Program-made: the position numbers and the translations under genes | Shown: piece by piece, positions 36,043 to 50,816 of the stretch | Layout: each line of letters begins with the position of its first letter | Numbering within the stretch: the stretch's first letter is position 1 | Notes under the pieces: generated by a model | Databases searched by the model: none | The model's input: only the letters and a program-made list of their open reading frames with translations | Told to the model about the DNA's origin: nothing | From: an uncultured Sutterella sp. | GTDB taxonomy: Bacteria > Pseudomonadota > Gammaproteobacteria > Burkholderiales > Burkholderiaceae_F | DNA: 64,000 nucleotides | NCBI GenBank assembly: GCA_945834535.1 | Contig: CAMAHM010000001.1 | Span: 19,260-83,259, forward strand | Direction: 5' to 3'

Positions 36043-38082
36043 ATGTTGCAACCCAACCACCTGCTGCAAAGCTTCACCATTGGAACAAAGCAGCTCAAAA
36101 ATCGCCTCGTCGCGGCTCCGATCGTCACGGGCTTTGAATGGGAGGAGCGCTCCAAGAATCTGCTTGAATTTTGGAGGCAGATCGCCCACGACGGCGTCGG
36201 TATGCTGATCGTGCCCGCCGGTCTCGTTACCCGTAACGGACGACCGATCAAAAAAGCGGTGCCTTTTCGCGCCGAGCAGGCTCAGTGGCATCAGCACCTC
36301 ACGGAGGACGTCAAGAAGGTCGGCTGCTGCCCCATCCTGCAGTTGATCCATGCCGGCGCCGATGCGGCGTCCCTATTGCCGGTACGCGCACAAAACCACC
36401 TTTTCCCGGTATCGGTGGGGCGCGAGCATCGATTCAAATCCTGGCGTCTGGCCCGTATCGTCAAAGGTTATGAGCAGACCGCCCAGATGGCCCTGCAGGC
36501 CGGCTACGAAGGTGTGGAAATTCACGCTTCCGGACGCAGCCTGATCGCTTCCTTCCTTGCTCAAACGCAAGAGGAGGGCGAACAAAAGGAACAAATTAAT
36601 CAGTTGAGCCGCTTCCGACTCGCTTTGGAAGTCGTTCGCGCCGTGCGCCGTCAGATCGGGGAAGACAAAATCATTGGTTTTCGTCTGACGCTGATGCAGT
36701 TATCCCCCCGAGGCAGCTCCTGGGAGGAGACACTGCGTTTTGTGCAGATGCTGCGCATCGCCGGAGTGGATTATCTGGCGGCTGATTTCGGCGGCTACCA
36801 ACTGCGCATTCCTACGGCATCCGATGACATTCCCGCCGGCGTATGGAATCCGTCCTACACGGCGTTGGCAAAAAATACGACGCTGCCCGTGATATTCGGG
36901 CATAACTTCGGCTCCCTAACGGATGCCGACAACATAGCCGGAGAGCTTGGCAACGCACTCTTTGAAATTCAGGACGAATACCTCGCAGATCGTCAGTTTT
37001 TGTACAAAAGTTTGGGGTTGACCAAGGGGAACATTCTTCCATGGATCGAGCAATATCAATGTGGTAAGGCTTATGATCAACAACGCTCCGAGCCGATTTT
37101 CAGTCTGACCCAACCAGAAGCCTTTGCCCGTTTCTCTCGCCATTCAAGTCAGATTGTTCACTATCGGAAAATTGCCGTGATCGGCGCCGGCATGGCCGGC
37201 GTGCATTTTGCACTGGCTGCTGCACACCGAGGTCACAGCGTCACTCTGTTTGAAGAGCAAGACGGCATCGGCGGCATTCTGCAGTATCTGCCGCGCATCA
37301 AGCAAACTGAAAAAATCCAGAGATGGCTACAGATATTGAATGATCGACTTGAGTTGTCTACTGTTAATGTAAAATTAGCAACAAAAGTCACATCATCCAC
37401 ATCCTTCGAAGAGAACGAGTTCAACACTGTCGTCATAGCGACCGGTACGGAAGCAGTCATGCCCGACATTGTCGGTATTGACTCCTCAAACGTCGCAACT
37501 TTCGATGAGATGTTCATCAACCATCTTCCCGTAGGCAATCGCGTGGCCGTTTTGGGAGTCAATCGCGTCTCCCTGGCCGTCTGTCGCTACCTCTTAAAAC
37601 GCAGCAAAGAAGAAAATCTCACGGCAGAACAATGGCGTAATGCCTGGGGGGTGGGGGACATCCGACAACACAAGGGGGGCGTTCTTGGTTTTGTCCCTGA
37701 AATTACCCCCCCGCCGCGACGCATCTATCTTCTGGAGACAGAACGCGGACAAATTGATGCCGTCACATCGGACCCGACCCTGCGTTGGGATTGGAAATGG
37801 CTCTTGATGAACGGAGTGCAGACATTTAAAAACTGCAATATTGAATCCATTGACAATTTCTCCGTGCACGTTTCGACCGGATCCAAACACACCGACAGCT
37901 TTACGGCACGCATTGACCATGTGTTGGTCTGTGGAAAAGTGATCCCCAATGACGACCTCTTTCTTCATTTCCGAAACCGAGGATATGAAACCTATCGCGT
38001 GGGTTCCGTGAACCAGATGCAATCTCTCGGATCGTTAAAAACGGTCATAGAGGAAGCATTGGAACTGGCTTATACGCTCTAA
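36043..38082 (+). CDS. Divergent NADH:flavin oxidoreductase / 2,4-dienoyl-CoA reductase-like protein
   Basis: OYE-like TIM barrel followed by IAVIGAGMAGVHFALAAAHRGHSVTLFEEQDGIGG nucleotide-binding domain. Confidence 0.75.
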   Translation: MLQPNHLLQSFTIGTKQLKNRLVAAPIVTGFEWEERSKNLLEFWRQIAHDGVGMLIVPAGLVTRNGRPIKKAVPFRAEQAQWHQHLTEDVKKVGCCPILQLIHAGADAASLLPVRAQNHLFPVSVGREHRFKSWRLARIVKGYEQTAQMALQAGYEGVEIHASGRSLIASFLAQTQEEGEQKEQINQLSRFRLALEVVRAVRRQIGEDKIIGFRLTLMQLSPRGSSWEETLRFVQMLRIAGVDYLAADFGGYQLRIPTASDDIPAGVWNPSYTALAKNTTLPVIFGHNFGSLTDADNIAGELGNALFEIQDEYLADRQFLYKSLGLTKGNILPWIEQYQCGKAYDQQRSEPIFSLTQPEAFARFSRHSSQIVHYRKIAVIGAGMAGVHFALAAAHRGHSVTLFEEQDGIGGILQYLPRIKQTEKIQRWLQILNDRLELSTVNVKLATKVTSSTSFEENEFNTVVIATGTEAVMPDIVGIDSSNVATFDEMFINHLPVGNRVAVLGVNRVSLAVCRYLLKRSKEENLTAEQWRNAWGVGDIRQHKGGVLGFVPEITPPPRRIYLLETERGQIDAVTSDPTLRWDWKWLLMNGVQTFKNCNIESIDNFSVHVSTGSKHTDSFTARIDHVLVCGKVIPNDDLFLHFRNRGYETYRVGSVNQMQSLGSLKTVIEEALELAYTL

Positions 38083-39404: not shown

Positions 39405-40346
39405 TCAGTCATATCGCGGCATTTGTTCGCCGGCGTGGTAGCTGGAACGCACGAAAACGCCGCAGAATGCCGACGAAAAGCCCATGGAAAGGGCTTTGTC
39501 CTGCCAGGCCTGAAACGCAGCCGGTGAGACATATTCTCTGACGGGAAGATGTGCGCTTGAGGGGGCAAGGTACTGCCCGATGGTTACGATGTCGACGTCG
39601 TTCTCGCGCAGGTCGGCAAGCACCTCTTCGACCTCTCTTTCGCTTTCACCGAGACCGAGCATGAATCCGCTTTTGGTGAGCACCTGGGGATTGCGCTTTT
39701 TGTATGCTTTTAAAAGCTTCAGAGAGTGCCTGTAATCTCCTCCGGGACGGCAAACCTTATACAGGCTCGGAACGGTTTCAATATTGTGGTTAAAGACGTC
39801 CGGAGGCGTGTTCGTCAGTGCGTCCAGGGCGGGCTCCATACGCCCTCTGAAGTCGGGCACCAGAATTTCCACCTGAATGCCCTCAAGTGCGTTGCGCAGT
39901 GCACGGATGACCTGCGCGAAGTGCTCTGCACCGCCGTCCGGCAGATCGTCTCTATCGACGCTGGTGACGACGATATGCCGTATCTGCAGTTCGCGACATG
40001 CGGCGGCGAGCCGTGCGGGCTCCGTCGGATCCAAAGGGGCCGGACGGCCGTGGGCAACGTCGCAGAAAGGGCATCGCCTCGTGCAGACACTGCCCATGAT
40101 CAGAAAGGTTGCCGTGCCGTGCTCAAAACATTCGCCGATATTGGGGCAGTAGGCTTCATTGCAGACACTCGACAGTCTCCAGGTTTTCAAAACCTGTTGG
40201 ACATGTTCGCTCTGCGGCGTTTTTTGAAGCGCTCGGACGCGCAGCCAAACGGGCTTTTTGAGCGCCTGAGAAGTGGCTGCGGCAAGGTGCAGCGGCCGTA
40301 CCTTATCGGCACCTCGCTCACCGGCAACCGTAGCGTGCTCGGTCAT
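39405..40346 (-). CDS. lipA: Lipoyl synthase
   Basis: CNEAYCPNIGECF and GSVCTRRCPFCDVAHG Fe-S motifs. Confidence 0.97.
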   Translation of the reverse strand: MTEHATVAGERGADKVRPLHLAAATSQALKKPVWLRVRALQKTPQSEHVQQVLKTWRLSSVCNEAYCPNIGECFEHGTATFLIMGSVCTRRCPFCDVAHGRPAPLDPTEPARLAAACRELQIRHIVVTSVDRDDLPDGGAEHFAQVIRALRNALEGIQVEILVPDFRGRMEPALDALTNTPPDVFNHNIETVPSLYKVCRPGGDYRHSLKLLKAYKKRNPQVLTKSGFMLGLGESEREVEEVLADLRENDVDIVTIGQYLAPSSAHLPVREYVSPAAFQAWQDKALSMGFSSAFCGVFVRSSYHAGEQMPRYD

Positions 40347-41290
40347 AAAGTCAGACTCGACAGCAACGGCGCGACAAGACTCACGAGCGCCCCGACCGTC
40401 ACAAGAAAGGAAAACACAACTTCAAGCTTGATGGTTCCGAACATTACGGCATTGAGTTCAAGCCCCTGTTTTTTCCCGAGCGTACGCATCAATCTGAGGG
40501 CCGAAGGAAAGACCGCCCAGCAAAGCAGCGTCCCCCACAGAGAAGGATTGAAGGCTACCAAAAGAAGAATGCAGGCAAAACCGCCGAGAAGCATTGCGGC
40601 ATACACCTTCTGCATTTTGCGTGCTCCCAACACGACGGCCAGCGTTCTGCGTCCGACTTCCGCATCGTGCACGATGTCGCGATAGTTGTTGACGGCAAGA
40701 ACCGCAGCAGCGATCAACCCCAGGCCGCTTCCTGCCAAAAAGGCTGTCAGTGTCATAGTGTGTGCCTGCAGCCAGTACGTACCACCGACCGCAACAGGAC
40801 CGAAAAATACATACACCATCAATTCACTGAAGGGCGTATAGGCGATGGGCTTTTTGCCGCCCATGTACGAATAGGCGGCAGCAACGGAAGCCAGACTGAT
40901 GGCCGCCATGACCCATCCGCCGACATAAATGAGGTAGGCGGTGTCCAGAACTACCACGGCAATCAAAACCTTGATCATGCTCTCCACAGCATTGACCGTC
41001 AGCCAACCGTTGGCGGTGGCTCGAGGAAGTCCCTTGCGTGTGGCCCTCTCGGCTTTGCGTTTTGTGTAGCCGGCATCGTTTTCCATGTTGCTGATGATCT
41101 GCATCAGAAGGGAAAGCGCCAGAGTGGCCAGTGCTACACAAAAATCAAAAGTGCCCGTGTCGGCGGCAGCAACAGACAGCCCCACGGCCACGGGAGCGGC
41201 GGCGATGCACAGTGTTTTGGGGCGTGCACAGGCCATCCACGCCGAAAAACTTCCGGGAGTGACGCCGGAATTGGGAGAAACAGAGGTCAT
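40343..41290 (-). CDS. menA: UbiA/MenA-family polyprenyltransferase (1,4-dihydroxy-2-naphthoate polyprenyltransferase-like)
   Basis: RPKTLCIAAAPVAVGLS, NMENDAGYTKRKAERATRKGLPRA, NNYRDIVHDAEVGRRTLAVVLG (MenA-type Asp motifs). Start at 41290 gives ATGA overlap with lipB. Confidence 0.82.
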   Translation of the reverse strand: MTSVSPNSGVTPGSFSAWMACARPKTLCIAAAPVAVGLSVAAADTGTFDFCVALATLALSLLMQIISNMENDAGYTKRKAERATRKGLPRATANGWLTVNAVESMIKVLIAVVVLDTAYLIYVGGWVMAAISLASVAAAYSYMGGKKPIAYTPFSELMVYVFFGPVAVGGTYWLQAHTMTLTAFLAGSGLGLIAAAVLAVNNYRDIVHDAEVGRRTLAVVLGARKMQKVYAAMLLGGFACILLLVAFNPSLWGTLLCWAVFPSALRLMRTLGKKQGLELNAVMFGTIKLEVVFSFLVTVGALVSLVAPLLSSLTL

Positions 41291-41922
41291 GACTGAAGTT
41301 GATCTGTTAGGTGCCGACAAAGCAGCGGAGCTACCTTCTCAGGCGTCGTACGGCATCCCTGCTGCGCCATGTCGGTCATGCGAAGACGGGAGTATCCGCA
41401 CGGAGAAATGCGTTCAAAAAGGCTCAGATCCATGGCAACGTTCAACGACAGACCGTGATACGTGCAGCCATGGGAAATTTTGACGCCGACCGAAGCGATT
41501 TTAGCTTTGCCGACGAAAAGGCCGTCGCCGCCCTGACTGGCAACATAAACCCCCGGAGCCTGAGGCACAGTGTCGGCCCGGATGCCGAAATCTGCCAGCG
41601 TCAGAATGACAGCCTGTTCAAGGCGGTGCACATAGTCTCGGGGGAGAATATGCGCTCTGTGTAGATCGATGAGCGGATAGGCAACAAGTTGCCCCGGCGC
41701 ATGTAGTGTGATGGAACCGCCTCGGTCCACGCGAACAACCGGAATGCCGTTCAGGTCGGAAACTGAGTTTGAGCCGTCTGCTGAGCGACCGACGGTATAG
41801 ACCGCCGGATGCTGCACGAGCCAGATCTCGTCCTCACTGTTTGAAGTTCTTTGCGCGGTAAACGCTTTCATGGCGGCAAAGACGTCGCCGTACAGTGCCG
41901 AACCAAGATCGCGGATGATCAC
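41287..41922 (-). CDS. lipB: Octanoyltransferase
   Basis: DEIWLVQHPAVYTVGRSADGS, GGSITLHAPGQLVAYPLIDL, KIASVGVKISHGCTYHGLSLNV. Confidence 0.95.
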   Translation of the reverse strand: MIIRDLGSALYGDVFAAMKAFTAQRTSNSEDEIWLVQHPAVYTVGRSADGSNSVSDLNGIPVVRVDRGGSITLHAPGQLVAYPLIDLHRAHILPRDYVHRLEQAVILTLADFGIRADTVPQAPGVYVASQGGDGLFVGKAKIASVGVKISHGCTYHGLSLNVAMDLSLFERISPCGYSRLRMTDMAQQGCRTTPEKVAPLLCRHLTDQLQS

Positions 41923-41931
41923 GGACGCCCC

Positions 41932-42225
41932 TTAAAGAACGACTTTGACCATAGGGTGGGAGGTCAGCATGCGGTAGACGCTGTCCAACTGATCTTTGCT
42001 GGTGGCGTGCACCGTCACGGTTAGAGCAGTGTACTTTCCTGTTTTAGAAGGGTGGCCGGTGATGGTCGAGGGATCAAAATCGGGCACGATTTCGCGCACG
42101 GCACCGCCGATGACGCGGGAAAAATCCGCCGTCGTGACTCCCATGACCTTGATGGGAAAATCGCAGGGAAACTCCAAAAGAGATTCCTGCACGCGGGCAT
42201 CATCGAGGATTGTGTTTTGCGACAT
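41932..42225 (-). CDS. DUF493 (YbeD) family protein
   Basis: LLEFPCDFPIKVMGVTTADF...VTVHATSKDQLDSVYRMLTSHPMVKVVL. Confidence 0.88.
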   Translation of the reverse strand: MSQNTILDDARVQESLLEFPCDFPIKVMGVTTADFSRVIGGAVREIVPDFDPSTITGHPSKTGKYTALTVTVHATSKDQLDSVYRMLTSHPMVKVVL

Positions 42226-42237
42226 TTTTGAGTGATC

Positions 42238-43449
42238 TCAGTTAATGGGTTTTTGTGTGGTTTCAACGGGCTTCATGCGCAAACGCACGGAGTCTACAAA
42301 GCGGGAAAGAAAGCTTCCCTGACCGACATCGTGCACGGCATGCAACGGAAAGTCTGCAACATGCTTGTTTTCAAAGTATATTTCAAGCGTTCCGATCGGA
42401 TCTCCCGCCTTGACGGGGGCAACGGCCGGCGCAAGATAACGCAGCTGCGCTGAAAAGCCGCCCGTGCCGCGCGCTTCAATATCCTGACGGCGAACGGTAA
42501 CCCACACTTCCTTGGGGCTGGCAAGTTCAAGCGTTTCCCGGTTGCCGCTAAGAATGTCGATTTTTTTGATCGGGACATTGGCGGGAAAAAGCCGTACTGT
42601 TTCATAGTTTGTCCGCCCGTTGATCAGAAGCGTCTGCATGTCGTTGATGGCCGTCTCTGAAGATAGGCCCCCCAACAAAACGGCAAAAATATGTCTGGGT
42701 TGGACGGATTCGCCGGCCTTTCTGTGCCAACTGCTGATCAGATCCCGATTGGAGGACGAAGCCATAATGCCGTCGGTGACGTGGCCCTTCCAGAGAAGCA
42801 GGTTGCGGTTGCGCTGTCGGTGCTGGGCATAACTGAAGGTTTTATCGTTGAGCCAGGCAAACTGGGCGGGATGGCGTTGATAGAGAGCTGCTGCTAAAAG
42901 CGCTAGATCTCGAGCACTTGTCTTTTGATTTTGTTGAACAATCGGTCCGACAAATGAAGAGTCTGTCATCCCCAGCAGGGAGGCAAAACGATTCATATGC
43001 CCAGCAAAGGCTTCCGCTGAACCCGCGGTATGACGGGCCAGCGCAAGAGCGGCATCATTGGCGTTGACCACGGCAACGGCACGCAAAAGCACCTGAACAT
43101 CCACTTTCTCGTGGGGAGCCAGATAGATGCGGCGAAGCGACTGCGCCTGTGCAACATCGTCGGCGTGGACGGTGGTTGTCTCGATCTCTTTGCCCTGGGC
43201 TTTGAGTTCTTCGAGCCGCTCCAGCGCCGTGTAAAGCGTCATCAGGTGCACAAGCTCGCCCGGATTGACGACGCGGCGTGCTTGTTTTTGCTCCATGATG
43301 CTGCCGCTCAGAGCGTCCATCAGCACCCAGCTTTTTGCTTGCGAGGACAGATGAACTGTGGCGGCATGCGCCGTCGTCAGAATCGAGGCGGTCAGCACAA
43401 GCAGCGCACACAACAGGGATGCCGCAAAAGTTTGAATCTTCCTAAACAT
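42238..43449 (-). CDS. D-Ala-D-Ala carboxypeptidase (PBP5/DacA) family protein, apparently lacking the catalytic motifs
   Basis: Signal peptide, VLMDALSGSIMEQKQARRVVNPGELVHLMTLY, NANDAALALARHTAGSAEAF, HRQRNRNLLLWKGHVTDGIMASSS, NYETVRLFP; PBP5-like architecture and synteny. Confidence 0.8.
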   Translation of the reverse strand: MFRKIQTFAASLLCALLVLTASILTTAHAATVHLSSQAKSWVLMDALSGSIMEQKQARRVVNPGELVHLMTLYTALERLEELKAQGKEIETTTVHADDVAQAQSLRRIYLAPHEKVDVQVLLRAVAVVNANDAALALARHTAGSAEAFAGHMNRFASLLGMTDSSFVGPIVQQNQKTSARDLALLAAALYQRHPAQFAWLNDKTFSYAQHRQRNRNLLLWKGHVTDGIMASSSNRDLISSWHRKAGESVQPRHIFAVLLGGLSSETAINDMQTLLINGRTNYETVRLFPANVPIKKIDILSGNRETLELASPKEVWVTVRRQDIEARGTGGFSAQLRYLAPAVAPVKAGDPIGTLEIYFENKHVADFPLHAVHDVGQGSFLSRFVDSVRLRMKPVETTQKPIN

Positions 43450-43469: not shown

Positions 43470-44099
43470 TCAGATGAGTGCGGCAAACCGCGACAGCTCA
43501 CGCCCCAACAGGGGAAGTTTTCCGGCAAAGACATGGTCGGCTCCGGGGACAACCGTCAGCGACAATCCGGCATTGGCACACCAGGTGAGCGCCATTTGCA
43601 GGGGGATAATCTCGTCACACTCACCGTGCACGACAAACGTGGGCGTGGCGGGAATCGGGACATTGAATCGGGCAATGCCGGGGCCGGCCAGGATCATGCC
43701 TGCGGGTTTACGGACCTGCGCGGCCAAACTGGCGACGTAGGCACCGAAGGAAAAACCTCCGAAAATCACTCGCCCGGTGGCGGGCAACATTTCCACAACG
43801 CCCCGCATCTCGAATGCTCGGTCAATGATGGTCAGAAAGTCCTCGGTTTCACCGACTCCGGCTTCGTACTGACCTTCACTGGCGCCCGCACCGCGAAAGT
43901 TTCCGCGAATGACCATCCATCCGACCGAAGTCAGGGCGCGGCTCATCGTTGTGATGACCTTGTGGTCCTTGCTGCCGCCGACGACAGTCAGGGGATGGGC
44001 AAGAAACGCAATGCCCTTGCTGCAGTGCTCGGGCATGTCGATATCGACCTCAAGAAGGCCCGCAGAACCTTGAATTTGTGTACTATGGGTGATCGCCAT
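43470..44099 (-). CDS. Alpha/beta hydrolase family protein
   Basis: FLAHPLTVVGGSKDHKV, RGNFRGAGASEG, FGGFSFGAYVA nucleophile elbow, GADHVFAG. Confidence 0.8.
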   Translation of the reverse strand: MAITHSTQIQGSAGLLEVDIDMPEHCSKGIAFLAHPLTVVGGSKDHKVITTMSRALTSVGWMVIRGNFRGAGASEGQYEAGVGETEDFLTIIDRAFEMRGVVEMLPATGRVIFGGFSFGAYVASLAAQVRKPAGMILAGPGIARFNVPIPATPTFVVHGECDEIIPLQMALTWCANAGLSLTVVPGADHVFAGKLPLLGRELSRFAALI

Positions 44100-45950: not shown

Positions 45951-46394
45951 TCAGTCGAGCTTCTCGAGTTCCCGCACCAGCCGCGCGAGCATGTCTTGGG
46001 CTTTACGGCGGCGCTCAGCGTATTTGTCCGACGGCATTACACGCAGACGCTCCGACCAGACCGATCCCGGGAAGAAGGCATCGTCGCTCCAGCGGGCAAT
46101 GATGTGCCAATGCACATGCGGCACCATGTTGCCGAGACTTGCCCAATTGACCTTGTCGGGGGCGAGTTCCTCGAGCATGATCTTTTCGATACACTCAAGA
46201 ATTCGGAAAAGCCGCGACTTTTCAGCAGCAGTGAGGTCGGCCATCTCCTTGACGTGGCGCGTCGCGATGACGCGCACGAAACCGGGGAGATCTGCGTCGG
46301 CGGCATCGATGACGTAGAACATCGCATCGCGCCAAATCTCTCTCGGGTGTCGGGAAGAGCAAAGTTCACAACTCATAATTTTCTTTCCCATCAA
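45951..46394 (-). CDS. HIT family protein
   Basis: [14 protein letters not shown] (HxHxHxx motif). Confidence 0.9.
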
Positions 46395-49300
46395 ACAAGT
46401 ACACGTTCAATTCCGCCTTCGCGGATGTGCGCAAGGAAGTTGTCGTACCAATCCTCACCCAAACGCAGTCGGGCCATTTCCACGGTAAGGAACTCGGCCT
46501 GTGTGCCGGTGGAGTCGTTGTAGCGGCTCATCCCCTGCAGGCAACCCGGACAGGTGGTCAGCACCTTGATTCGACCGGCAAAGCCGTCGCTGCTTACCTG
46601 GCGCTTGGCAAGCTGAATGCTCTCTTCCTTGCGGAAGCGAACCTGCGTGGCGATATCGGGGCGACCGACTGCGAAGGTGCCCGACTCACCGCAACAGCGA
46701 TCGGTGAGTTCCACCCTTCGGCCGTCCTGCGCATGAATCAGTTTGTTGACCGATTCGATCGGCTTGGGGGTATTGAAGGGAGTGTGGCAGGGATCGTGGT
46801 AGAGGTAGCGCACGTTGTCGGGACCTTCCACGTTGATGCCTTTTTCGAGCAGATAGTCGTGGACGTCGATGACGCGACAGTTCGGGAAGATCTCTTCAAA
46901 GTGATATTCCTTGAGCTGTTTGAGGCAGGTGCCGCAGCTCACCACCACGGTACGGATGTCCAGGTAGTTGAGCGTGTTGGCGACACGGTGAAACAGCACG
47001 CGGTTCTCGGTCACGATCTTTTCGGCCAGATTCAGGTCGCCGGCCCCCTTTTGCGGATAGCCGCAGCACAGATACTTCGGAGGCAGAACGGTCTGCACGC
47101 CGATGTCGTAGAGCATGGCGAGCACCGCCATCGACACTTCGGGGTACAGGCGTTCGTTTCCGCAGCCGGGGAAATAGAACACGGCTTCTGACTCGGTGGC
47201 CGTCGGTTTGCGGATGATCGGCGCAAAGGAGGAGTCGTTGAGCTCAAGAATGCTGCGCATCGTGCGGGGCAGACGCGGTATCGGGAGCTTGCGGTTGACG
47301 AGCGTCACCACCTGTTCGGTGATGCCGGGCTTTCCGATCGTATGCGTTGGGCGTTGCATCTGGGGCTTGGCCACCATGGACAGGATATCGCTTGCCATGC
47401 GTTCGGCACGAAAGCCCACGTTGACGAGCGCCTTGCGGGCAAGCTCGACAGAGCTCGGGTTGGAAAGCTCCAAAAAGCGCATGCCGGCATATTTTGCCGG
47501 GGTCGTGGTTCCTGCGCCCGCGTGCTTGAGCAGGTTGCGCAGCAGGATCGTCACCTCGCCGAAGTTGATCTTGACCGGACAGGGATTGCGGCACTTCATG
47601 CAGAGCGTGCAGTGGTCGGCCAAATCCTCCAGAGCCTTCAGATGCAGGTCCGACAAACCGCGGCGGGTCTGATGCTCGTACAAAATGGCTTCCAACATCA
47701 GGCTGGTCGCGATGATTTTGTTGCGCGGCGAAAAGAGCAGACTGGCGCGCGGAACATGCGTCGAGCACTGCGATTTGCACTTACCGCAGCGCAGACAGTT
47801 CTTAATGGCATCCGAAACCGCCTTGGACTGCGTTTGCTGCATGATGATCGACTCGGATCCAATCAGGCTGAAGCTCGGGGTGTAGATGCCGTCAAAGTCG
47901 ATGTCGTCGGACAATTTGCCGCGATTGAAGACCCGTTGGGGATCGACCGTGCGCAGATATTCGTGGTAGGGCTCAAGGGAAGCCTTGTCGAGGAATTCGA
48001 TTTTGGTCAGGCCGATACCGTGTTCGCCTGAAATGGCACCGCCCAGATCCTTGGCCTTTTGCATCACCATGCGGACGGCCTGCTGGCCCTTTTGCATCAT
48101 GACGTAGTTGTCGGAGTTGATCGGGATGTTGGTGTGCACATTGCCGTCACCGGCGTGCATGTGCAGAGCAATGAACACGCGCCCCTTAAGAACTCGGTCG
48201 TGAATGGCATCAATCTGATTGCGCACCTTCTCAAAAGCGTCGCCCTGGAAGATGCGAAACAGCTCAGCGCGCACTTCCTTTTTCCAGGAAATGCGCATCA
48301 GACGCAGACAGAACAAGTCGAAAATCGTCTGCTTGTTGCTCCGTGAGAAGGCCGGACATCCGAGGTTCATCATTTCCTGCCGCACGCTTCGAACGGGGCT
48401 GTCGAGGTGATCGTGGATGAAGCTCCAGCGATTTGTCACAGCGGCAAGCAGCTCTCGGGCGGCCGCAAGCGGGGCGGCAAGAAGGTCTTCCTTGGAGATG
48501 TCCTGCGTGATGGTGGGCATGCCCAGAGAAATGTAGCCTCCCAGATAGTCCTCCACTGCGCGAATCATGTCGAGTTTGTTTTCGATCGAGCAGCGCACGT
48601 TGAAGTGCTCGCAGGCTTCCGTGTACTCACCGATGGCGCTGAGCGGAATGACGACGTCTTCGTTGAGTTTGAAGGCGTTGGTGTGTGCACTGATGGCCGC
48701 CGTGCGGCTGCGTTCGTGCCAAAAGCGCAGGCGCTCCTGATCGGTGCGGGCAATGAAGGCTTCGCCCCCCTGCTCGGCGCACATTTTGGCAACGCTGAGC
48801 GTGACGTTGTCCAACTTGGTTTCGTCATCTCCGACAATGTCGCCCACAAGAACCATCTTGGGGAATTCGCCGCGCCGACTCTTGACCGGGTAGTTCACAG
48901 CGTGCAGGTAACGGTCGTCCAGGTGTTCAAGGCCGGCCAGCATGCAACCTAAAGGTTTGTCTTCGAGATAGGAGGTGATGGAGCAGATGGCGGGGCCGGC
49001 TGCTTTGGCGGCACCGAAAAATTCCAGACAGATCGTGCGGGTGTATTTGGGCATGCGGTGCACGATCCACTTTGCGGAGGTGATCAGACCGTCCGTGCCT
49101 TCCTTCTGAACCCCGGGCAGCCCCCCGAGGAATTTGTTGGTCACATCCTTGCCGAGTCCCTTTTTGCGGAAGATTTCGCCGGGCATCGAGAGGGTACGCG
49201 TGCTCAGAGTGCGGGCCTGCGCGGGATCGGGCGTGCGGCCGTCTTTGACGGTGATGCGCCAGCTCACTTGGGGCTGCTTGTGAATTTTGTCCAGATTGTG

Positions 49301-50302
49301 GTTGAGGCGCTCGATCTCGAGCCAGTTGCCGTCGGCGGTCACCATGCGGTAGCTGGCAATGTTGTCGACTGCAGTCCCCCAAAGTACGGCCTTCTTGCCG
49401 CCCGAGTTTTCAGCAATGTTGCCGCCCACGGTGGAGCTGTCGGCGCTGGCCGGATCCACCGAGAACACCAGCCCGTACTTGGCGGCCGCTTCCGTCACGC
49501 GTCGCGTCACGGCGCCTGCCCCCGTGCTGATGACAGGTGTCAGACAGTTGGGTTCATGCCCGGGAAGGCGAATCTTTTCGACGGCACCGATATGGTCAAA
49601 CTTTTCCGTGTTGATCACGGCCGTCATTGGGCTCATCGGAACGGCGCCGCCCGTGTAGCCGGTGCCGCCTCCTCGCGGAATAATGATCAGCCCCAGACGC
49701 ACGCAGGCTCGCACAAGAGCGGGGACTTCGTGCTCGCTGTCGGGGGTGATGACTACAAAAGGAAATTCAATACGCAGGTCGGTGGCGTCCGTCACGTGAG
49801 CCGCGCGCGTGAAGGGATCAAAACGCACGTTGTCCGAGCGCGTGGCGCGCGACAGAGCCCGCATGACGCGGCTGCGCAGTCTGTGGGTGGAGGCCAGATC
49901 GGCTTCAAAGCGACGGACGGCCTGATGCGCGGCCGTCATCAGATACACCACCAGAGCATCTCGGTCCGGATTGCTCGGATCGCGGCGCTTGTCCATCTCA
50001 TTGAGACGGTGGTAGAGCGCGTCGATCAGAAGCTTGCGGCGCGCAGGATTCTGCAGCATGTCTTCCTGCAGATAGGGGTTGCGGTTGACAGCCCAGATGT
50101 CGCCCAGAACCTCAAAAAGCATGCGTGCGCTTCTGCCCGTGCGCCGTTTGTCCCTTAACTGCGACAGGATGTTCCAGGCTTTTTCTCCGAGCAGACGGAT
50201 GACGATTTCTCTGTCGGAAAAAGACGTGTAGTTGTAGGGAATCTCGCGAATGCGTTCGCCGGATTCTTGGACTTGGCGGGGTGCCTGCTCGTGTTCAGTC
50301 AT
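46391..50302 (-). CDS. FAD-linked oxidase + 4Fe-4S fusion (DUF3683/D-lactate dehydrogenase-like), about 1300 aa
   Basis: [20 protein letters not shown] motif; [17 protein letters not shown] and [14 protein letters not shown] Fe-S motifs; CCF-type cysteines ([34 protein letters not shown]). Confidence 0.88.
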
Positions 50303-50816
50303 AGGGGGTTCCAAAAGGCCGGGGCTCAAAAGCTTCCTCTTGTCGGAGGTCAGCGCATTGATTTCAAAAAGAGTTTTCTAGTTGTTTGTGAGTGGGGGCC
50401 GTTGCCTTTCGCAGGTCCCTGATCAAACATGCACAAGGGGCGAAAGAGAAAGTGACGGCGGCCCTTCCGAATCTTGCAGACACGTATGAAGCGCAGATGT
50501 TCGGAAACGCGCGGTCACTGCCGGGGCGAACGGCTTTGTGTCGGACATTGTAGCCTTTCGCAGAACTGTGTAAAACCACCGGCGAAATTTTGTAAGCCGA
50601 TGATATTCAAACGAAGAAATTGTCAATTTTGACGACGTTGCCCGGTGCTTGAGTGAAGAAGCGGAGGTTCGTGATCGGCCTTGCTCCGACCGCACGGGGT
50701 TGGCGCTTGGGCATACAATCACTATTTCAGCTTCGGGAAGTAGGCGGCCGACAGCGGTGCTGCGCTGTTTTTCCCGAGCCCCCTCAATCAAACGAACCAC
50801 AACGACATCAAGAAAA

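Follow-up and report, generated by a model that had tools for sequence, protein, structure and literature searches.

At the dacA locus of Duodenibacillus, the gene for PBP5, a standard cell-wall-trimming enzyme and the main DD-carboxypeptidase, is intact and encodes a protein in which all three catalytic motifs are replaced, so that loss of serine-peptidase activity, as read from the sequence, is near certain. The loss spans a lineage and recurs, and extends beyond the single gene of an earlier sequence-only reading of the window (the whole stretch of DNA analysed, 64,000 nucleotides), the source of which is Duodenibacillus (Sutterellaceae, Burkholderiales), in the family that the earlier reading had correctly guessed. 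Genera of the family are coded g1 (Duodenibacillus), g2, g5, g7 and g13-g17, and motif-less PBP5 was found at the dacA locus in 32/32 genomes checked from six related genera (g1, g2, g7, g15, g16 and g17), including 10/10 of Duodenibacillus. We put at about even the chance that a non-enzymatic scaffold has become fixed lineage-wide, in parallel with other Burkholderiales families, and that the conserved function of PBP5 is separable from catalysis and lies in the C-terminal domain.

The Duodenibacillus PBP5

The PBP5 (DacA) ORF (window 42238-43449, minus strand) was claimed in the sequence-only reading to be an intact frame of 403 codons with a signal peptide and a full C-terminal domain, and it is so: it has an ATG start and a full frame, and Pfam matches above cut-off place Peptidase_S11 at residues 35-227 (127 bits) and PBP5_C at residues 282-375 (44 bits). 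The export signal and C-terminal amphipathic anchor expected of a PBP5 homologue are both present by sequence and prediction only, the hydrophobic moment of the C-terminal helix (380-392) reaching up to 0.68. The parts of the protein are as follows.

42238..43449, minus strand: dead PBP5 (DacA orthologue), 403 aa; intact ORF, S11 and PBP5_C, three catalytic motifs replaced
43363..43449, minus strand: signal peptide, approximately residues 1-29, MFRKIQTFAASLLCALLVLTASILTTAHA; from the sequence and a model helix at 2-18, with the cleavage site placed by eye
42625..43347, minus strand: dead S11 DD-carboxypeptidase domain, residues ~35-275; Pfam 35-227, pLDDT mostly >90
43246..43263, minus strand: PGELVH replacing PASLTK (SxxK), residues 63-68; from alignment
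43057..43065, minus strand: NAN replacing SGN (SxN), residues 129-131; from alignment
42757..42765, minus strand: MAS replacing KTG, residues 229-231; from alignment
42325..42606, minus strand: C-terminal beta domain (PBP5_C), residues 282-375; Pfam and model
42274..42312, minus strand: C-terminal amphipathic helix, residues 380-392 (SFLSRFVDSVRLR region), probable membrane anchor; model helix and hydrophobic moment

An AlphaFold2 model built from 29 sequences (pLDDT 89.9, pTM 0.85) confidently predicts that the protein folds as PBP5, and its best match among solved structures (Foldseek) is P. aeruginosa PBP5 4k91_B (E 3e-33, TM 0.90 by target, rmsd 2.2, 353 columns). The S11 fold with PBP5_C expected of a PBP5 homologue is thus met by Pfam, AlphaFold2 and Foldseek. 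Because active homologues are in the model's alignment, the fold is supported while the detail of the pocket is not independently proven.

Loss of the catalytic motifs

In a comparison set of 26 active PBP5s, the Ser and Lys of SxxK, the Ser and Asn of SxN, and the Lys, Thr and Gly of KTG are each found in 26/26. The window protein meets none of the three motifs, reading PGELVH, NAN and MAS in their places, and the alignment bears out the earlier claim that all three had been replaced. That claim had also located PGELVH correctly as a motif, although the coordinates given (43246-43257) fall 6 bases short of 43263-43246. A search of the whole protein for displaced motifs, which could have refuted the loss, found nothing usable: the sole SxxK is S36-Q-A-K39, upstream of the domain, SxN occurs only at 232 and 301, and there is no [KHR][TS]G. 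An alternative placement of the motifs was therefore ruled out, since no other site in the protein offers them. The product would be unable to act as a serine DD-peptidase or to be penicillin-acylated at that serine, a conclusion reached at the sequence level with no biochemistry.

What has replaced the nucleophile depends on the genus: it is acidic in g1 (D/E65 in 10/10 Duodenibacillus), Asn in g2 and mixed in g16. The NRN motif (R215) does not vary across an alignment of 29 sequences, seven of them g1 proteins, and its arginine is gone in g2 and g16.

Distribution across the family

Relatives were recovered with an alignment of close relatives as the query, a single-protein query having given no confirmed relative; named records matched in this way were Duodenibacillus massiliensis Marseille-P2968T (L106), four uncultured Duodenibacillus MAGs and one Sutterellaceae MAG. 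PBP5_C was found in 36/67 family genomes (g1 10/10, g2 6/9, g7 1/1, g15 2/3, g16 11/12, g17 2/2, g5 3/3, g13 1/1). Two further genera of the family, g5 and g13, keep the active enzyme (four proteins), with PASLTK, KTG and an SxN of SAN or SGN (SAS in two).

The head aligns fully in 23 of the 32 dead proteins (g1, g2 and seven of g16), and all 23 have lost the Lys of SxxK, the Ser of SxN and KTG; the Ser of SxxK is lost in 21, with L047 and L050 keeping a serine in the column. Nine dead proteins (g7, g15, g17 and four of g16) have a clear PBP5_C and a head that is barely or not recognisable, some being only ~300 residues long, and the C-terminal domain and export signal are retained even in proteins without a recognisable head. 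No PBP5-like ORF was found in g14 (L074-L077), where a ~1 kb slot lies between a large upstream ORF and DUF493, and one g15 genome is also without the gene; PBP5 is therefore dispensable in some relatives.

Recurrence in other Burkholderiales families

Genomes of other Burkholderiales families with weak S11 matches show similar partial or full loss of the motifs, mostly visibly at the same locus. The motifs read PGGLTA/GAH and PMGLSG/GAH in genus g34 of family f17, and mostly PGPLTK/GAN, without KTG, in family f18, whilst one to three motifs are altered in f17 g73, f2, f21, f23 and f43. These partly altered proteins look as if they were intermediate steps of loss. Amongst them (L143, L145, L146, L149, L202-L205 and L156, of f2, f17 g73, f21, f23 and f43), KTG is often the motif altered first (MTG, MAG, QTA). 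In E. coli, even changing the KTG Lys to Arg has been reported to abolish carboxypeptidase activity (PMC9430164). A tree made without the motif columns requires at least four changes to account for the loss of SxxK; the long branches leave the exact placement of the losses uncertain. As the genomes were selected for low S11 scores, loss frequencies cannot be read from the sample; 20 loci picked among high S11 scores were all intact.

Locus and ancestry

From upstream, the order of genes is alpha/beta hydrolase, dead PBP5, DUF493 (ybeD), lipB, UbiA-type prenyltransferase and lipA.

43470..44099, minus strand: alpha/beta hydrolase, 20 bases upstream of PBP5
41932..42225, minus strand: DUF493 (YbeD), 12 bases downstream of PBP5, its invariable neighbour
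41287-41922, minus strand: lipB
40343-41320, minus strand: UbiA-type prenyltransferase, between lipB and lipA
39405-40346, minus strand: lipA

The position upstream of ybeD-lipB-lipA expected of a dacA orthologue is met, and the dead genes all lie directly upstream of DUF493 (32 genomes; L034 of g1 is at a contig end). The sequence-only reading had likened the locus to dacA-ybeD-lipB-lipA, which is right as to order and overlooks the inserted UbiA gene, absent from the E. coli order; its view that the gene is an orthologue and not a stray paralogue is upheld by locus order and phylogeny. Since both indicate vertical inheritance, recent horizontal gain was likewise ruled out. Placement of the dead clade as sister to the active g5/g13 proteins was not rejected (AU p 0.32), so its exact branching is unresolved.

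Wherever enough sequence was available, the examined loci of g1, g2, g7 and g14-g17 all contain the UbiA-type prenyltransferase, which none of the other examined genera of the family has there; it is thus a marker of the lineage that does not depend on PBP5. Active Burkholderiales have the order dacA, class IV aminotransferase, DUF493, lipB, lipA; in the dead lineage the aminotransferase is gone and the prenyltransferase adjoins DUF493/lipB. In a comparison of L094-L096 and L206-L225 with L032-L052 and L078-L087, the aminotransferase lay between dacA and DUF493 in nearly all active or partly altered Burkholderiales loci (exception L215) and was absent from all fully dead loci except L191. Functional coupling of the two proteins, through D-Ala release and D-amino-acid transamination, is possible.

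A scan for an operon promoter gave no signal above chance. Elsewhere in the window, a 1312-aa ORF (46391-50329, minus strand) appears by eye to be a fusion of an FAD-linked oxidase with an Fe-S oxidoreductase, and a 679-aa protein (36043-38079, plus strand) carries FMN oxidoreductase and pyridine-nucleotide-disulphide oxidoreductase domains.

Selection and constraint

No internal stops were found in the PBP5 frames of the 32 genomes. Between L032 and L036, which form the closest pair within Duodenibacillus, PBP5 has a Nei-Gojobori dN/dS of 0.061, against 0.098 for lipA, 0.104 for lipB, 0.095 for the alpha/beta hydrolase, 0.085 for ubiA, 0.070 for coaX and 0.053 for DUF493; dS is ~1.6 for this pair, making the ratios approximate, but one method served for PBP5 and its neighbours alike. 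Values are higher in g16 (0.15 and 0.23), still far below 1, and in g17 the pN of PBP5 exceeds that of its neighbours. Purifying selection still acts on the head domain in g1 and g2. Active PBP5s show slower evolution in the catalytic domain than in the C-terminal domain, and dead PBP5s show the opposite: the median head/C-domain divergence ratio, taken over disjoint sister pairs, is 0.61 for 13 active pairs and 1.26 for 12 dead pairs (Mann-Whitney p 6e-5). The extra constraint that came with catalysis has thus disappeared, and the C-terminal domain remains constrained. Decay in sister genomes would have pointed to a pseudogene; the genes there are intact and without stops, and this, together with the low dN/dS (0.06) and the confident PBP5 fold, sustains the earlier proposal of a conserved pseudoenzyme.

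Other DD-peptidases in these genomes

A search for candidate active DD-carboxypeptidases, which the sequence-only reading had recommended, found two kinds with intact motifs: DacB (S13), with SxxK, SNN or SSN, and KTG, in 19/19 g1 and g2 genomes, and a second S11 protein in the window's genome, which is PBP7-like, carries IASVTK, SDN and KTG, and is without PBP5_C. Both look active from these motifs. In g2 (G001-G009) no S11 protein was found besides the dead PBP5, and 3/9 genomes have no S11 protein at all, so that DacB may be the sole DD-peptidase of the searched kinds in that genus. VanY-type carboxypeptidases were ruled out as substitutes, none being found in the 19 genomes (0/19; further classes were outside the search).

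What the dead PBP5 may do

We somewhat favour, by analogy with E. coli, a non-catalytic, membrane-anchored periplasmic scaffold that contacts peptidoglycan synthases through its C-terminal domain; the role is inferred and no partner has been identified. Also in its favour are the lineage-wide loss of the motifs, the maintenance and predicted fold of the protein, the shift of constraint to the C-terminal domain, the nine proteins in which PBP5_C alone is well recognised, and the substitute enzymes. The vertically inherited dacA of Duodenibacillus would yield a product without serine DD-peptidase activity, predicted to be exported and to stay attached, through its C-terminal helix, to the periplasmic side of the inner membrane. 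As inferred from E. coli DacA, the C-terminal domain would dock on peptidoglycan synthases and help to place or regulate them, the dead head serving some genera as a folded partner, a spacer or a binder of stem peptides and having eroded elsewhere, and DD-carboxypeptidase work would have shifted to DacB (PBP4) and, where present, the PBP7-like enzyme. Catalysis by E. coli DacA does not require its C-terminal domain, whereas binding to PBP1a, PBP1b, PBP2 and PBP3 does, as do most of the protein's cellular roles; E. coli DacA and DacC are the only proteins for which such binding has been demonstrated (PMC10269652, PMC9430164). It counts against a scaffold that g14 has lost the gene altogether and that the beta-lactam phenotypes tied to these C-terminal roles still required enzyme activity (PMC9430164). 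Moreover, S44G PBP5 did not rescue cell shape in E. coli and made it worse (PMC4916385), and it lost septal localisation (PMC2909392). A dead PBP5 is hence not simply functional in E. coli, and the lineage must therefore have undergone adaptation, unless the head serves in binding.

Such a binding role is the core of an alternative that we regard as possible and rather unlikely, in which the dead head acts as a stem-peptide sensor or shield, binding pentapeptide D-Ala-D-Ala uncut and so protecting pentapeptides or reporting their density. Purifying selection on the head in g1 and g2 and the invariance of R215 in the 29-sequence alignment would fit it, as would the description of E. coli PBP6a as seemingly inactive and possibly pentapeptide-protecting (PMC4916385), whereas the variation of pocket residues between genera, the loss of the NRN arginine in g2 and g16 and the fading of the head in g7, g15, g17 and part of g16 do not. 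Erosion of this kind, with the faster evolution in g16 and g17 and the absence of the gene from g14 and one g15 genome, is what would be expected if activity had become dispensable given DacB and PBP7 and the ORF persisted by inertia and operon position. We consider such slow decay less probable still, as 32 genomes contain no stops, dN/dS in Duodenibacillus is lower than for lipA and lipB, and the C-terminal domain and export signal persist even in proteins that have lost the head.

That the acidic residue at the old serine, fixed in g1, belongs to a different active site within the retained pocket fold (model, Foldseek) is very improbable: the residue is not common to g2 or g16 and the remaining catalytic residues are also lost. 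We know of no S11 enzyme with acidic-residue chemistry of this kind. The assembly behind the window is indeed a draft in 146 contigs; nevertheless, misaligned motifs or sequencing or assembly error are refuted by these data, since independent genomes, the D. massiliensis type strain among them, show the same losses and the protein offers no alternative motifs.

Relation to known systems and significance

With E. coli and P. aeruginosa PBP5 (DacA, Peptidase S11, a type-5 low-molecular-mass PBP) the window protein shares the locus, signal peptide, fold, PBP5_C and amphipathic helix; it differs in lacking the three catalytic motifs and in a constraint shifted from the head to the C-terminal domain. 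The E. coli protein PBP6a (DacC) has the same fold, and its binding to PBPs depends on the C-terminal domain (PMC10269652, PMC9430164), but it is a paralogue that keeps its catalytic motifs, whilst the window protein is a dacA orthologue without them; DacC appeared inactive by muropeptide analysis (PMC4916385), yet the purified protein shows DD-CPase activity (PMC10269652). Degenerate LytM factors (DipM, ActS) are likewise dead cell-wall peptidase homologues, kept as regulators of cell-wall enzymes (PMC10336132, PMC8360153). Theirs, however, is a LytM metallopeptidase fold and their partners are known, whereas the window protein has the S11 fold, not LytM/M23, and its partners are not known. 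A literature search, from which most subscription journals were out of reach, found no earlier report of a PBP5 pseudoenzyme.

Annotation pipelines will probably label such dead proteins as active carboxypeptidases. Why PBP5 is needed beyond pentapeptide trimming, and what its stalk domain does, are long-standing questions, to which this lineage offers a natural experiment: catalysis has been removed, the stalk and anchor have been kept, and the head is almost gone in several genera, so that an enzyme-independent function of PBP5 becomes directly testable. The retention under selection of an intact dead PBP5 in most relatives suggests that it has an important non-enzymatic job, and an altered, perhaps pentapeptide-rich, wall is predicted in these common gut bacteria, which would depend on DacB and PBP7.
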